Positions 7,021 to 36,209 of a stretch of 41,551 nucleotides of DNA are shown one piece after another (the first letter of the stretch is position 1; the number at the start of each line of letters is the position of its first letter). This DNA comes from Halorubrum lipolyticum DSM 21995 (GTDB lineage Archaea; Halobacteriota; Halobacteria; Halobacteriales; Haloferacaceae). Location of the stretch: positions 1-41,551 of the forward strand of contig NZ_AOJG01000030.1 in NCBI RefSeq assembly GCF_000337375.1, in the 5' to 3' direction. Under the pieces are notes generated by a model. The model was not told where the DNA came from and did no database searches. It worked only from the letters and a program-made list of their open reading frames with translations. The position numbers and the translations under genes are program-made.

Positions 7021-7425
7021 CTATCGCACTCGCAGCCCGCGGTGGAGCGTGTAGGCGGGGACGAGCAGGTAGAGGAAGGGGACCCCCGAAACCGGATGCG
7101 CCAGCAGGGAGCCGGCCGCGAGAATCAGGTACCCCTTGGCCGGCGGCGACCACGCGGTCCGGGTCCGCATCGCGTCGAGCTCCGCGGCGAAGACGTACAG
7201 GAACGCGCCGGCGACCGCGAGCCACAGCGCCCCGGCGACGAGCGTCGCGGGCAGCGTGCCCGCCGCGTCGGCGACCGCTCGCGGCACGCTCCGCCGTCCG
7301 GCGGCGTACGCCGGGTCGACCAGCGCCCGGGCGGCGATCGACGCCGGCAGGTACAGCGCGGCGACGACGACGGTCGTCCAGTAGGGGGCGTTACCCCGTC
7401 CGCCGGACGCCGGTGTGGGGGTCAT
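7021..7425 (-). CDS. Hypothetical membrane protein, three segments
   Basis: A 134-residue protein I do not recognise. Hydrophobic stretches lie at about residues 17-38 (TTVVVAALYLPASIAARALV), 54-80 (AGTLPATLVAGALWLAVAGA and following) and 96-125, with a basic C-terminus HRGLRVR. This suggests a three-segment inner-membrane protein. I start it at ATG 7425 (MTPTPASGG), since the in-frame extension to 7590 is Arg-rich and runs through the 30-bp tandem duplication. No clear TATA box is placed for it; the 340 nt upstream carry that duplication and an AT-rich island. Confidence 0.6.
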   Translation of the reverse strand: MTPTPASGGRGNAPYWTTVVVAALYLPASIAARALVDPAYAAGRRSVPRAVADAAGTLPATLVAGALWLAVAGAFLYVFAAELDAMRTRTAWSPPAKGYLILAAGSLLAHPVSGVPFLYLLVPAYTLHRGLRVR

Positions 7426-8692: not shown

Positions 8693-9736
8693 TCAGAGCC
8701 CGTACGCGACCCGCTCGCCGACGTCGAGGCCGTTCGCGAGCGCGGCGTGGAGCCGTCCCTCGCCCGCGACCCAGTCGCCGAGGACGTACAGCCCCTCCCG
8801 ACGGGCGGAGTCGATCGGGCCGCGATCGACGCCCGTCTCCGGCTGCGCGTACCGCCAGCCCTGGTGGTCGGTCCACGCCGGGTCCGCCAGTCGGTCGTCG
8901 CCGAGGATGTCCGCGGCGTGTCCGGCGAGCCTCGCGACGTTCTCGGCCGGGTCCGCGTCGTAGCGCTCGACCGACCACTCGTGGTTCGCCTGCACGACCA
9001 GCAGGCTCTCGCCGTCGGGGACGTGGCCGGGCTTGCACTCCTCGCGGGAGAGCCACCCGACGGCGTGCTCCTTGTCGGTGTTGACGAGCCCGTAGTAGGG
9101 AACGTCGAGCGGGAACGGGTAGCGCAGCACCGCGGTCCAGACGGTGCGGTACGCCACGTCGCCGACGGCGTCGACGAGCGCCTCGCGGACCGGCGAATCC
9201 CACTCCGCGCCCCGGAGGAGGTCGGCGGTCTGGGGCGCCGGCGGATTCAACAGGAGAGCGTCGAACGGCCCCCGCGTCTCGCCGTCCGCGTCGTCGACCT
9301 CCCACCGGTCGCCGACCCGGCGGACCGTCTCGATCCGCGTCCGGCGGTGCACCGTCGCGTCGGTCCGGCCGAAGAGCCGCTTCGCGATCTGCGTGAGCCC
9401 CCGTCGGTAGCTCCACTTGTGCTCGTCCGCGTCGCGACCGGGCGAGACCTCGCCGTCGGCGTCGAAGACGTGGATCGGTTCGGTGACGTCCACGAGCCCC
9501 TCGTCGTCGAGCGTCTCCGTGATCAGCTCGACGACGCGCTCGTCGTCGGCCTTCAGGTAGTTCGCGCCGTAGTCGTAGGTCAACTCGTCGTGCCGGCGGG
9601 TCGCCGCGCGACCGCAGAGCCCGCCGGACTTCTCGAAGACCGTCACGTCCGCGTCCGGAAGCGCGCCGTCGACGGTGAACGCCGCGGCCGCGGCCCCCGC
9701 GCCCGCGCCGACGATGCCGATGTGTGTCACGGTCAC
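8693..9736 (-). CDS. Renalase-like NAD(P)/FAD-dependent oxidoreductase
   Basis: A 347-residue flavoprotein. The N-terminal dinucleotide fold is HIGIVGAGAGAAAAAFTV (about residues 5-22), with the ribose-binding acidic residue in VTVFEKSGGLCGR. The C-terminal FAD motif is GLYVLGDWVAGEGRLHAALA (about residues 317-336), as in renalase-like amine oxidase-fold proteins (COG3380 type). The substrate is unknown. Two GTG starts are possible, 9736 and 9730. The TATA-like GATTAAG on the minus strand (9755-9761) is about 27 nt from 9730, which would give the neat opening VTHIGIVGAG, so the protein may be two residues shorter than listed. It converges with copy 1 of the structured repeat. Confidence 0.8.
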   Translation of the reverse strand: MTVTHIGIVGAGAGAAAAAFTVDGALPDADVTVFEKSGGLCGRAATRRHDELTYDYGANYLKADDERVVELITETLDDEGLVDVTEPIHVFDADGEVSPGRDADEHKWSYRRGLTQIAKRLFGRTDATVHRRTRIETVRRVGDRWEVDDADGETRGPFDALLLNPPAPQTADLLRGAEWDSPVREALVDAVGDVAYRTVWTAVLRYPFPLDVPYYGLVNTDKEHAVGWLSREECKPGHVPDGESLLVVQANHEWSVERYDADPAENVARLAGHAADILGDDRLADPAWTDHQGWRYAQPETGVDRGPIDSARREGLYVLGDWVAGEGRLHAALANGLDVGERVAYGL

Positions 9737-31472: not shown

Positions 31473-32672
31473 GTGATGACTGACGAAGGTGCTTCCGGAC
31501 GGCGTACTGGCTCCAGACGCGGCTTCCTCTCAGCGGCCGCGGCGCTCGGTACCGTCGGGATCGCGGGCTGTGGCGCGCCGCGAGCCGAGAGCACGGGAGA
31601 CGCGGAGAACGCGGCCGGCGGTGGGGGAGAGGCGGCCGAACGGGTCGAGGAGTGGGCCGGAAGCGATTCCACCGGCGTCGAGACGGACCACCCGTACACG
31701 TCCCCGCGAACGGAGATCGACCTCGACGAGCGGGACGGGGCGATCACGATGTCCACGACCCCGTGTCGCCACCGGCTGCTCGGCGAGGAGACGCGGGGCG
31801 GCCCGTGGGAGCTGCCCGAGGTCTGGGCGTGGCAGACCCCGGACACGGACCCCAGCGTCCCCGGACCGCTGCTTCGAGTCACCGAGGGGACCACCTTGGA
31901 GATCACCTACGACAACTCCGAGCACAACCGGCCGCACACGTTCCACGTCCACGGGCTCTCGAAGAGCTGGATGGACGACGGCGTCCCGACGACGACCGGT
32001 CAGCAGGTCGCACCGGGCGAGGAGCACACCTACGAGATCGACGCGAACCAGCCGGGCACCCACCTCTACCACTGTCACTACCAGACGCAGAACCACCTCG
32101 ACATGGGGATGTACGGCATCCTCCGCGTCGACCCGGAGGGGTACGAGGCCCCCGACAAGGAGGCGTTCATGACGATCAAAGACTGGGACAGCCGACTGTC
32201 GGCGTCGATGGCCGGCGGCGACGTCTCCTTCAGCCACCGCGACCGCAACCCGGACGCGTTCACCGTGAACGGCCGCTCTGCGCCGTACACGTTCCACCCC
32301 GAACAGGGCTCTCCCTTGGTCGTCGAGGAGGGCGACCGGGTCCGGATCCACTACGTCAACGCCGGCTACGAGTCGCACGCGATGCACACGCACAACCACG
32401 GCTTCACCGTCGTCGAGAAGGACGGCGGCGTCATCCCCGAGGCCGCTCGGCACCGCGAGGACGTGATCCCCATCGCGCCCGCCGAGCGCAAGACGATCGA
32501 GTTCACCGCCAGCGCCGACCCGGGCGTCTACGCGCTCCACTGTCACAAGGTGAACCACGCGATGAACGGCGAGAGCTACCCCGGCGGCATGATCGGCGGG
32601 ATGGTCTACGAGAGCGTGACGGACTCCGAGCAGTTCGCCTCCGTGATGGAGATGGCCGGCTACGAGGCCTGA
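31473..32672 (+). CDS. Tat-exported two-domain multicopper oxidase
   Basis: A 399-residue cupredoxin protein exported by Tat and lipid-anchored: GSRRGFLSAAAALGTVGIAG followed by Cys (lipobox IAGC, Cys33). Domain 1 has RPHTFHVHGLSKSW (His-x-His) and GTHLYHCHYQTQNHLDMGM, whose Cys, His and terminal Met fit a type 1 copper site. Domain 2 has SHAMHTHNHGFTVV and VYALHCHKVNHAMNGESYPG with a following Gly-Gly-Met. Both domains therefore carry HxH and HCH motifs, giving the trinuclear cluster of a laccase-like two-domain oxidase. The start is GTG 31473 or ATG 31476. It lies beside nitric oxide reductase, and a role in nitrogen-oxide or copper metabolism is plausible. Canonical NirK signatures are absent. 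Confidence 0.8.
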   Translation: MMTDEGASGRRTGSRRGFLSAAAALGTVGIAGCGAPRAESTGDAENAAGGGGEAAERVEEWAGSDSTGVETDHPYTSPRTEIDLDERDGAITMSTTPCRHRLLGEETRGGPWELPEVWAWQTPDTDPSVPGPLLRVTEGTTLEITYDNSEHNRPHTFHVHGLSKSWMDDGVPTTTGQQVAPGEEHTYEIDANQPGTHLYHCHYQTQNHLDMGMYGILRVDPEGYEAPDKEAFMTIKDWDSRLSASMAGGDVSFSHRDRNPDAFTVNGRSAPYTFHPEQGSPLVVEEGDRVRIHYVNAGYESHAMHTHNHGFTVVEKDGGVIPEAARHREDVIPIAPAERKTIEFTASADPGVYALHCHKVNHAMNGESYPGGMIGGMVYESVTDSEQFASVMEMAGYEA

Positions 32673-32730: not shown

Positions 32731-33153
32731 CTAACAGCAGAACATGAATGGGTACACCAGCGCGACCCGGTCGCCGTCCTCGATCTCGGTGTCGAACCCC
32801 TTCTCGTTCTCGTTGAAGTGACCGTTCACGAGGATCCGGGCGTACGCGATCGTCTGCTCGCCCACCGGATTCTTCGTCCACGTGCCCGGCAGCTCCTCCG
32901 GCGTCGGCGCCCAGCCGCTGTGGGTCGACTCCTCCTCGCTCTCCGCGATCAGCATCTCCTGTAGCTCCGGGTACTCCGCGAACAGCTCGTCGAGGAACTC
33001 CCGGAGGGTGTCCCCCTCGAACGTGTACTCGAACTCGTACTTCCCGAGCTCCGTCCGGACGTGACCGGTGCACCGCACCGTGACGGTGGTCTCGGTGATC
33101 GTCTCCGACGCGCTCGCGGACTCCGGTGTCGCCGCCTCGCTGGTCGTTGGCAT
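32731..33153 (-). CDS. MoaD/ThiS-fold protein ending in Cys-Cys
   Basis: A 140-residue protein. Residues about 22-55 (TTVTVRCTGHVRTELGKYEF, then GDTLREFLDELFAEYPEL) give the beta-hairpin and helix of a beta-grasp domain. The C-terminal part AYARILVNGHFNENEKGFDT followed by EIEDGDRVALVYPFMFCC matches the MoaD/ThiS ending (V-N-G...L-x-D-G-D-x-V-A-L-x-P-P-V-x-G-G), except that the Gly-Gly needed for adenylation is replaced by Cys-Cys. A family-atypical insert of about 35 residues (THSGWAPTPEELPGTW) lies between the halves. ATG 33153 has a GGCTTACCGG box 28 nt upstream and a palindromic operator at -45. It is divergent from the NO reductase gene, which suggests a dedicated metal-handling or sulfur-related role there. 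Confidence 0.75.
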   Translation of the reverse strand: MPTTSEAATPESASASETITETTVTVRCTGHVRTELGKYEFEYTFEGDTLREFLDELFAEYPELQEMLIAESEEESTHSGWAPTPEELPGTWTKNPVGEQTIAYARILVNGHFNENEKGFDTEIEDGDRVALVYPFMFCC

Positions 33154-33185: not shown

Positions 33186-33209
33186 ACCGCACGAACATGT
33201 TCGTGCGGT
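33186..33209. promoter_or_regulatory. 24-bp perfect palindrome, operator of the MoaD-like gene
   Basis: A perfect 24-nt inverted repeat with the core CGAACATGTTCG at 33192-33203, centred about 45 nt upstream of ATG 33153 and just upstream of its TATA-like box. The core has the form CGAA-N4-TTCG that I recall being reported for the haloarchaeal denitrification regulator NarO. The same CGAACATGTT core recurs 92 nt away on the NO reductase side. Confidence 0.75.
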
Positions 33210-33283: not shown

Positions 33284-33295
33284 CGAACATGTTGC
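33284..33295. promoter_or_regulatory. Imperfect CGAACATGTT operator of the NO reductase gene
   Basis: CGAACATGTTGC, ten bases identical to the core of the palindrome at 33192-33203, centred about 45 nt before ATG 33335. A weak TATA-like CGATAGTC lies at 33304-33311. The matching distance from each start codon argues for two separate activator sites. Confidence 0.65.
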
Positions 33296-33334
33296 CGCCA
33301 AACCGATAGTCCGTGTGGCGGTAACCCCCAGCCG

Positions 33335-35623
33335 ATGGAACTCACGCGTAAGACGATCGCGAAGGTCATCGTCGCGGCGTTCCTGCTCAACCTGGTCGTG
33401 ATGGGCGCCGGGGCGTGGTTCGCGTACCAGGAGGCGCCGCCGATCCCCGAGGAGGTCGTCGGTCCCGACGGCGAGCCGATCGCCACGGGGGAGACGGTCC
33501 AGGACGGGAAGGCGGCGTTCCAGCAGTACGGGCTGATGAACCACGGGTCGATACTCGGCAACGGCGCGTACTACGGCGAGGACTACACCGCCGAGACGCT
33601 CGAGTTGAAGACCGAGCACATGCGCGAGTACTACGCGCAAGAGGAGTACGGCGCCGGATACGACTCGCTCGGCTCCTCGGAGCGCGCGGCGGTCGACCAG
33701 ACCGTCCGCGACGACCTCGACGGCGCGCACGGCGGGGGCGACACCGTCCGGTACTCCGCCGCGGAGGCGCACGCCCACGAGAGGGTGCGCGAGACGTACG
33801 TCGAGCGCTACCACGAGGGCGACCACGACCGCGGCGTCCCGGTGGGGATGATCGAGTCGACCGAGGAGGCCGAGGACTTCGCCGACTTCGCGCTGTGGAC
33901 GGCGTGGTTCTCTCACACCGACCGGCCCGACGGCGACAACTCCTACACGAACGAGTGGCCCTACTCGCCGGCCGCCGGCAACGACGCGACCGGCGCCGCG
34001 ATGACGTGGAGCGTGATCGCGATGGTGCTGCTCGTCGGCGCGGCGGGCGCGGCGATCCTCCTCTACAAGTCGGTGAAACTCCCGGAGCCGTCGGCGGAGG
34101 GCATCTCGGTGCCCAAGCCGGGCGACGTGAGCGTCTTCCCGAGCCAGCGCGCGGCGCTCCGGTTCGTCCCGATCGCCGCCGGGCTGTTCCTGGCGCAGGT
34201 GTTGTTAGGGGGGTTGCTGGCGCACTTCTACATCGAACGGGCCGGGTTCTTCGGGATCGAGGAGGTGTTCGGGATCCACATCCTCCAGCTGCTCCCCTTC
34301 TCGATCGCGAAGACGTGGCACATCGATCTCGGGATCCTCTGGATCGCGTCGACGTGGCTCGGCGCCGGCCTGTTCCTCCCGCCGCTCCTCACCGGCCACG
34401 AGCCGAAGCGCCAGTCGACGTACGTCACCGTCCTGCTCGGCGCGTTAGTGACCGTCGTCGTCGGCGGGATGGGCGGTATCTGGCTCGGCGCGAACGGCTA
34501 CTTCGACGGCCAGCTCTGGTGGCTCCTCGGCAACGAGGGGTTGGAGTACCTCGAAGTCGGGAAGGTGTGGCAGGGCGGCCTGCTCGTCGGCTTCGTCTTC
34601 TGGGCGATCCTCGCGGTCCGGGGGCTCAAGCCGCTGCTCGACCGCGAACCCGTGTACGGGCTCGCGCACATGATCCTCTACGCGGGCGGCTCGATCACCC
34701 TGCTGTTCGTCGCCGGCTTCCTGTTCACGCCGTCGACGAACATGGCCGTCACCGAGTTCTGGCGGTGGTGGGTCGTCCACATGTGGGTGGAGGGCGCCTT
34801 CGAGTTCTTCATCGTCGCGATCATCGGGCTCACCTTGGTCTCGATGAACCTCCTCACGCGGCGCAGCGCCGAGAAGGCGGTCATGCTGCAGGCGCTGTTG
34901 GTGATGGGGACCGGTGTCATCGGCGTCTCGCACCACTACTGGTGGATCGGGATGCCCGACTACTGGGTCCCGATCGGGAGCGTCTTCTCGACGCTGGAGC
35001 TGCTCCCGCTGATCTTCATCCTCTACGAGGCGATCGGGCAGTACCGGGCGATGACCGAGACCGGCGGGTTCCCCTACAAGCTTCCCTTCATGTTCATCGT
35101 CGCCAGCGGGGTGTGGAACTTCGTCGGCGCCGGGGTGCTCGGCTTCTTCATCAACCTCCCGCTCATCAACTACTACGAGCACGGCACCTACCTCACGGTG
35201 GGCCACGCGCACGCCGCGATGTTCGGCGCGTTCGGCTTCCTCGCGCTCGGGATGGTAACGTACATGCTCCAGCTGTCGATCGATCCCGAGCGCTGGGACG
35301 GCTCGTGGCTCCGGGCGTCGTTCTGGTGCTGGAACGTGGGGCTCGCGCTGATGGTGTTCGTCTCGGTGCTCCCCGTCGGCTTCCTCCAGCTCGAGGTCGC
35401 GTTCACGGAGAGCTACGCCGCGGCGCGCGGCCTCGCGTTCTACGAGGGGCCGCTCGTCCAGACGCTGTTCTGGGCGCGGCTACCGGGCGACACCCTGCTC
35501 ATCCTGGGGACCGCGATCTACGTCGCGGACCTGATCCGCAAGCGGTTCGTCCTGCGGAGCTCCGCCGAGGACCCGAGCGTCGACGACATGGCCGTGGCGG
35601 AAGGAGTCCTCGACGACGACTGA
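33335..35623 (+). CDS. norZ: Quinol-dependent nitric oxide reductase (qNor, NorZ-type)
   Basis: A 762-residue integral membrane haem-copper-oxidase superfamily enzyme that reduces 2 NO to N2O with electrons from quinol. An N-terminal membrane helix (residues about 7-28) and an extracellular domain with QDGKAAFQQYGLMNHGSILG are the fused NorC-like part of qNor. The catalytic subunit has 13 or more helices. FWRWWVVHMWVEGAFEFF (about 474-491) contributes the FeB His and the characteristic Glu residues. SHHYWWIG (about 531-538) gives the two further FeB His, and TVGHAHAAMFGAFG (about 619-632) the haem ligands. It is full length. It is preceded by a CGAAC-type operator, which predicts induction under oxygen limitation with nitrate or NO. 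No other denitrification gene except perhaps the multicopper oxidase is nearby. Confidence 0.92.
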   Translation: MELTRKTIAKVIVAAFLLNLVVMGAGAWFAYQEAPPIPEEVVGPDGEPIATGETVQDGKAAFQQYGLMNHGSILGNGAYYGEDYTAETLELKTEHMREYYAQEEYGAGYDSLGSSERAAVDQTVRDDLDGAHGGGDTVRYSAAEAHAHERVRETYVERYHEGDHDRGVPVGMIESTEEAEDFADFALWTAWFSHTDRPDGDNSYTNEWPYSPAAGNDATGAAMTWSVIAMVLLVGAAGAAILLYKSVKLPEPSAEGISVPKPGDVSVFPSQRAALRFVPIAAGLFLAQVLLGGLLAHFYIERAGFFGIEEVFGIHILQLLPFSIAKTWHIDLGILWIASTWLGAGLFLPPLLTGHEPKRQSTYVTVLLGALVTVVVGGMGGIWLGANGYFDGQLWWLLGNEGLEYLEVGKVWQGGLLVGFVFWAILAVRGLKPLLDREPVYGLAHMILYAGGSITLLFVAGFLFTPSTNMAVTEFWRWWVVHMWVEGAFEFFIVAIIGLTLVSMNLLTRRSAEKAVMLQALLVMGTGVIGVSHHYWWIGMPDYWVPIGSVFSTLELLPLIFILYEAIGQYRAMTETGGFPYKLPFMFIVASGVWNFVGAGVLGFFINLPLINYYEHGTYLTVGHAHAAMFGAFGFLALGMVTYMLQLSIDPERWDGSWLRASFWCWNVGLALMVFVSVLPVGFLQLEVAFTESYAAARGLAFYEGPLVQTLFWARLPGDTLLILGTAIYVADLIRKRFVLRSSAEDPSVDDMAVAEGVLDDD

Positions 35624-35651: not shown

Positions 35652-36209
35652 TCACTCCGCGCGCCACGCCCCGCCGAGTTCGTCGCGTTCCATCGACTCC
35701 GCGTCGCCGTCGCGGAACACGCTCACCCGCCCCGTCTCCTCGCTCAGCGTCACCGTGGCCACGACCTCCGGCCGGACCGAGGTCTCGATCGCGCTCATGT
35801 GTCGCGACCCCATCCACGGCTCGTAGCTCACGTCGTCGACCAGGTCGGTCTCCTCGCTTCGGGTGCCCAGGTCGCGGAAGCGCACCATCTGGGCCTCGAT
35901 CTCGCCGTCGACCGCGACGACGACGCCGCCGTCCTGCTGGCGGCTCACCGACTCGACCGTCTCGACGAAGCAGTCCTCCGCGAGCGCCGTCGGACAGCTC
36001 TCGCGGGGCCACCGGTTGTCGCCCATCGGGTCGGCGTAGTCGCCGTAGTCACGGTCGGCGACGACCGCGAAGTAGAGTCCCGGCCCCTTGACGTGCGGCT
36101 CGTCCCAGCCGTCGAACGCGAGGCTGACGTGCTCGGCGCAGTAGGTCAACCGGTCGACGATCTCCCGGACCCGCTCGTGGGCGCCGTACTCGATCGCGAG
36201 CCCGCTCAT
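35652..36209 (-). CDS. dacZ: Diadenylate cyclase DacZ (c-di-AMP synthase)
   Basis: A 185-residue protein with the DisA_N/DAC domain that condenses two ATP to cyclic di-AMP, a second messenger known to be essential in Haloferax volcanii. The active-site DGA-type motif is QQDGGVVVAVDGEIEAQMVR (about residues 92-111). The ATP/metal RHR-type motif is MGSRHMSAIETSVRPEVVAT (about 134-153), where the second Arg of the bacterial RHR is Met. The N-terminal 90 residues (HERVREIVDRLTYCAEHVSL; GPGLYFAVVADRDYGDYADP) are the archaeal extension. ATG 36209 overlaps the TGA of a 14-codon leader ORF and is preceded by GGAGGAGGTCGA, a strong Shine-Dalgarno-like sequence, so it is probably translated by coupling or reinitiation. 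Confidence 0.78.
   Translation of the reverse strand: MSGLAIEYGAHERVREIVDRLTYCAEHVSLAFDGWDEPHVKGPGLYFAVVADRDYGDYADPMGDNRWPRESCPTALAEDCFVETVESVSRQQDGGVVVAVDGEIEAQMVRFRDLGTRSEETDLVDDVSYEPWMGSRHMSAIETSVRPEVVATVTLSEETGRVSVFRDGDAESMERDELGGAWRAE

Follow-up and report, generated by a model that had tools for sequence, protein, structure and literature searches.

Ubiquitin-like sulfur carriers act through a C-terminal glycine, and the MoaD/ThiS branch of the fold carries its thiocarboxylate there. A haloarchaeal beta-grasp family with a C-terminal Cys-Cys, arCOG00539, was noted by Makarova and Koonin in 2010, and the accessible portion of their paper gives it no function (PMC2948915). Haloarchaeal denitrification has in turn been linked to a short operator: in Haloferax mediterranei the promoters of nar, nirK, nor and nos have the semi-palindrome CGAAYATDKTYG in common, and mutating it lowers nor and nos (nosZ) promoter activity, for whose full level it is needed (PMC10062603), and in H. 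volcanii the motif has been reported in the promoters of denitrification genes including nirK, and of ahbD (PMC5746218). The locus described here, from Halorubrum lipolyticum DSM 21995 (GCF_000337375.1, contig NZ_AOJG01000030.1; the window is the whole stretch of DNA analysed, 41,551 nt), joins the two, with a Cys-tailed beta-grasp gene behind a copy of this operator (Table 1). Its family has the fold class, the taxon and the C-terminal double cysteine in common with arCOG00539 and is almost certainly the same family, matched by description and not by accession. As far as the accessible portion of the 2010 paper goes, the motif alone is noted, with no mention of an invariant Cys139, an alignment with the glycines, an operator, a 38-nt geometry or denitrification neighbourhoods (PMC2948915). 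Our literature search found no characterised homologue of the protein and nothing on the regulation of the family, its single invariant cysteine or its denitrification contexts. The Cys-Cys tail was therefore known already, and the invariant cysteine, the operator, its fixed spacing and the neighbourhoods appear to be new, since we found no paper reporting them.

Table 1. Features of the Cys-tailed locus, in positions of the window
Feature	Position	Strand	Basis or remark
Tat-type multicopper oxidase	31476..32672	+	convergent neighbour, no palindrome of its own
Cys-tailed MoaD/SAMP-like beta-grasp protein	32731..33153	-	140-aa translation, ThiS profile, Foldseek
C-terminal arm YPFMFCC and stop	32731..32754	-	tails read across 116 genomes; alignment with GG paralogues
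Family-specific insert of about 27 residues, residues 75-101 (GWAPTPEELPGTW.KNP.GEQ)	32851..32931	-	alignment
Perfect palindrome CGAACATGTTCG, denitrification operator	33192..33203	.	exact match, 38 nt from the ATG of the Cys-tailed gene
Imperfect copy CGAACATGTTGC	33287..33298	+	36 nt from the norZ ATG
qNor-type nitric oxide reductase norZ	33335..35623	+	PF22085 171 bits, COX1 165 bits; divergent neighbour

The open reading frame is genuine, with a translation that ends in GDRVALVYPFMFCC and a TAG stop at 32731-32733. An earlier note on this DNA had proposed a MoaD/ThiS fold that lacks the diglycine, and this is borne out: Pfam ThiS (PF02597) matches residues 46-135 at 29.7 bits, above its curated cut-off, and the top solved structures in Foldseek are Methanosarcina SAMP1, H. 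volcanii HVO_2177 and MoaD proteins, with probability 1.00. The NCBIfam model moaD_arch (TIGR01687) scores 43.4 bits, slightly under its cut-off of 49.5, and a sequence-profile search of solved structures gave weak matches alone, to SAMP/MoaD. The structure prediction that the note had asked for yielded an AlphaFold2 model in which the beta-grasp core is confident (residues 21-68 and about 121-130), whereas the insert and the last residues are poor, their confidence being too low to place a ligand site or to dock the arm. The insert is missing from GG-tailed paralogues and contains G80, W81, N95, P96 and G98, invariant in the Cys-tailed family; His31 is at least 90% conserved. Members occur in 115/170 genomes of the taxonomic family and in 245/391 of the class, all matches lying in Halobacteria; the phylum sample yielded none in genomes of other classes. 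The family is best read as a branch of the MoaD/SAMP beta-grasp proteins that is specific to haloarchaea.

What has replaced the diglycine is a single cysteine. FCC forms the C-terminal end of 28/28 close homologues, and when tails were read directly across 116 genomes the penultimate Cys139 was kept in 113, followed in every one of these by a cysteine or a hydrophobic residue (CC 93, CL 10, CV 7, CF 3; 3 exceptions). The tails of homologues thus neither vary freely nor end in Gly-Gly (0/116), the pair that E1 adenylation uses, and the outcome named by the earlier note as refuting its proposal did not arise. The last cysteine, by contrast with Cys139, gives way to Leu, Val or Phe in 20 of the genomes, and the change to Leu or Val arose several times independently on the tree. 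Cys-Cys as the functional unit is rejected on these replacements, and the conserved unit is instead P-F-x-[FY]-C-[hydrophobic or Cys].

Aligned with the three GG paralogues of its own genome (tails PPVAGG-T, PPVSGG-AVGR and AASGG-R), the protein has Phe138-Cys139 in the Gly-Gly column, and Cys140 falls on the residue that follows this pair. Of the earlier proposal that Cys-Cys stands in place of the diglycine, the Cys tail survives, conserved across the class, and the register does not. The invariant thiol therefore lies at the position of the thiocarboxylate-bearing glycine of MoaD/ThiS, and we infer that it may do equivalent chemistry. The GG paralogues themselves (L001, L002 and L004) have 1-4 residues beyond Gly-Gly (T, AVGR and R), so processing would be needed before activation, and an E1-like gene adjoins L004.

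The three exceptions to Cys139 are a substitution by Arg (L158, genome G146), a truncation (L147, G192) and a stop loss with read-through (L082, G095). All three have lost the upstream palindrome, against 4/112 of the others (p 1.4e-4), and qNor is missing from all three genomes; with both gone, these copies look like decaying genes.

The assignment of the Cys-tailed gene to the denitrification or anaerobic-respiration regulon is well supported, judged by operator sequence and spacing: CGAAYATDKTYG is present in its promoter. The pattern CGAACnnGTTCG occurs exactly within 250 nt upstream in 67/87 loci (77%), compared with 1.4% of control windows taken from the same 87 loci; if one mismatch is allowed, the figures are 83/87 loci and 6.9% of those windows. 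In 60/82 loci exactly 38 nt separate it from the start codon, a regularity that also supports the ATG at 33153 as the start. Across the whole genome (G000) the exact pattern is found 39 times and a reversed control pattern once, and the AT-centred form CGAACATGTTCG has two sites only, one at the Cys-tailed gene and the other in the nirK cluster. The earlier note had supposed shared divergent regulation with qNor. Co-regulation with denitrification genes stands, backed by a conserved and experimentally known operator motif; the Cys-tailed gene and norZ each have a copy of it and thus appear to have their own operators of the same geometry and not a single one in common. The imperfect norZ copy keeps the same core, with one variant, across nine Halorubrum loci.

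At the home locus, the convergent multicopper oxidase was considered as NirK and ruled out (65 bits for TIGR02376, whose cut-off is 296). NirK of H. lipolyticum is encoded on another contig, clustered with two DUF2249 genes, a cupredoxin, NosD and an HTH_10 regulator, and palindromes at 7280-7291 and 8736-8747 of this locus (L123) lie within the nirK/nosD/DUF2249 cluster, one of them preceding a DUF2249 gene by exactly 38 nt, as at the Cys-tailed gene. Beside norZ, a short DAC-like protein (35652-36209, minus strand; L130, 11281-11838, minus strand; PF02457 28.4 bits, cut-off 27) has by eye DGG in place of the DGA of diadenylate cyclases and RHM in place of their RHR, and a similar-looking protein, again by eye, lies near a Cys-tailed gene in Halobaculum.

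Across genomes, at least three distinct arrangements bring the Cys-tailed gene next to nor, which extends the pairing first seen here: divergent in many Halorubrum, on the same strand upstream of nor in two Halobaculum loci, and on the same strand downstream in another locus (L074). Within 500 nt we found NirK in 6 loci, qNor in 3 plus many Halorubrum, a COX1-like membrane protein in 10, a CGCGG RiPP candidate in 12, an HTH_10 regulator in 6, TIGR04347 NirJ/AhbC-like proteins in 9, TIGR04053 AhbD-like radical-SAM proteins in 3, and a NarG-like (DMSO-reductase-type-II) alpha subunit with its Fe-S subunit in 2 genomes; at least one of these neighbours is present in 39/63 loci. No sulfurtransferase or MoaE-like gene was seen recurring beside the Cys-tailed gene. 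Some neighbouring frames carried false N-terminal extensions (for example L084:3533-5284, with no family match) and were treated with caution. The COX1-related neighbour is an uncharacterised, 12-TM-like membrane protein, divergent in ten loci (L083-L088, L098, L109, L113 and L120); the member compared with NCBIfam, L075, had no match. The TIGR04347 'pseudo-SAM' proteins of six loci (L097, L105, L106, L111, L127 and L128), which often directly adjoin the Cys-tailed gene, have an intact CX3CX2C in the members seen.

These associations are recurrent and loose. Among 391 genomes, 163 have both the family and qNor, 82 the family alone, 44 qNor alone and 102 neither, a co-occurrence that is significant by a Fisher test ignoring phylogeny (OR 4.6, p 2.7e-12). 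The family is thus not present if and only if qNor is, and the dedicated role in NO reduction suggested by the earlier note falls on these counts and on the other neighbours. In a balanced 80-genome subset, NirK had no match over the cut-off in 11/20 family-bearing genomes without qNor, and some family-bearing genomes without qNor have neither an AhbC- nor an AhbD-like radical-SAM protein; given these absences, no single cofactor pathway is the obligate partner. Other links were weighed and set aside. An obligate tie to the AhbD-like TIGR04053 finds no support, since this family is about as frequent in genomes of the 80-genome subset that have the Cys-tailed gene as in those that do not; a strict tie to NirK or the COX1-like gene is only partial, both tracking denitrification more than the family in the balanced subset; and matches to the DMSO reductase type II/Nar alpha subunit are too generic to discriminate.

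Why would a sulfur-carrier fold give up its glycine? Our tentative reading, which we hold as possible and short of probable, is that the protein is a denitrification accessory factor that uses a cysteine side chain where its relatives use the C-terminal glycine, presenting arm and thiol cargo for cofactor assembly. The arm would no longer bear a C-terminal thiocarboxylate or isopeptide; in place of the terminal glycine it would offer the one invariant cysteine on a hydrophobic YPFxFC-[C/L/V/F] segment. By analogy with the MoaD arm and MoaE, it would most likely insert into partner maturation enzymes. The Cys139 thiol may carry a transferable group, most plausibly persulfide sulfur, and this cargo might serve to assemble the heme, Fe-S or Cu centres of the N-oxide respiratory enzymes. 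Taken further, and somewhat doubtfully, the family could represent a third chemistry for the ubiquitin/sulfur-carrier fold, in which a cysteine persulfide (or a metal or heme bound by cysteine) takes over the place in space of the glycine thiocarboxylate, making it a shared cofactor-maturation carrier for haloarchaeal denitrification.

Among the alternatives, the one that fares best, although we consider it unlikely, follows the metal-delivery idea of the earlier note: Cys139, with Cys140 or His31, would bind Cu(I), Fe(II) or heme and pass this on to respiratory enzymes such as NirK or qNor. The recurrent partner enzymes are all metallo- or hemoproteins, NirJ/AhbC/AhbD-like heme-pathway proteins are frequent neighbours, and the predominance of CC tails and the conserved His31 are as such a chaperone would have them. 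Yet the repeated loss of Cys140, together with the conservation of no cysteine besides Cys139, means that a bis-Cys metal site is not general; a dispensable Cys140 weighs against that site and not against binding by a single cysteine. NirK-type enzymes are moreover exported, whereas no export signal was seen in the Cys-tailed protein.

We regard as distinctly less probable a thiol switch, in which NO stress leaves Cys139 oxidised, nitrosated or in a disulfide and thereby alters the binding of a partner (MoaE, E1 or a transcription factor), the protein acting as a non-conjugatable ubiquitin-like regulator. Regulation alongside NO-producing and NO-consuming genes fits this, as do the adjoining HTH_10 regulators and the loss of Gly-Gly, which makes E1-type activation unlikely; in H. 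volcanii, SAMP1 linkage is reported to inhibit molybdopterin synthase (PMC4443979). The invariant NG.FNE and KNPEG residues of the insert, however, suggest a specific binding role beyond that of a bare thiol.

Lower still we place a membrane anchor, with Cys139 thioether-lipidated and the protein tethered near membrane respiratory enzymes in the manner of eukaryotic UBL3/MUB. To our knowledge haloarchaea have no C-terminal prenyltransferase, and C-terminal CL, CV and CF are non-standard prenylation signals, which counts against a proposal that the hydrophobic arm (YPFMF-C-[CLVF], Cys139 always preceding a cysteine or hydrophobic residue) would otherwise favour; UBL3 is reported to be a ubiquitin-fold protein sorted to vesicles (PMC6158211). 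That this is merely a general anaerobic or stress protein among clustered anaerobic genes, with no specific role in N-oxide respiration, is very improbable, because different lineages put the gene directly beside nor, nirK or NarG-like genes and keep the promoter geometry strictly, even though the family occurs in genomes without qNor and the palindrome lies at many other sites in the genome.

The preferred reading, an accessory factor with a cysteine for its glycine, would point to an accessory protein still missing from the picture of archaeal denitrification, a process with a poorly characterised maturation machinery, and it makes a motif that was left without a function in 2010 testable as a gene of denitrifying haloarchaea. 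That a widespread branch has exchanged the glycine for one invariant cysteine, and in several families of haloarchaea is kept under a denitrification operator, suggests that the fold is put to another use here. Several known systems frame this use. DsrC and TusA are small proteins with a conserved cysteine as sulfur carrier, in DsrC on a C-terminal arm, but their folds are unrelated to that of the Cys-tailed family. Eukaryotic UBL3/MUB likewise has a modified C-terminal cysteine in place of Gly-Gly; it resembles the family in its ubiquitin fold and Cys-based C-terminus, and differs in that eukaryotic enzymes modify its CaaX-type tail, in an unrelated pathway. The DUF2249 (DrpA-like) accessory genes of H. 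mediterranei are induced under denitrification, 2/4 under the same palindrome (PMC11218638); they too are small accessory genes, one of them in H. lipolyticum with the 38-nt spacing, but belong to a separate domain family (PF10006). Nearest in structure are SAMP1, HVO_2177 and MoaD, which have the same beta-grasp core (2l52, 2m19 and 1vjk are the best matches) and the DGDRVAL strand before the tail, and which end in an E1-adenylated Gly-Gly where the Cys-tailed family has Phe-Cys-X and its additional insert.
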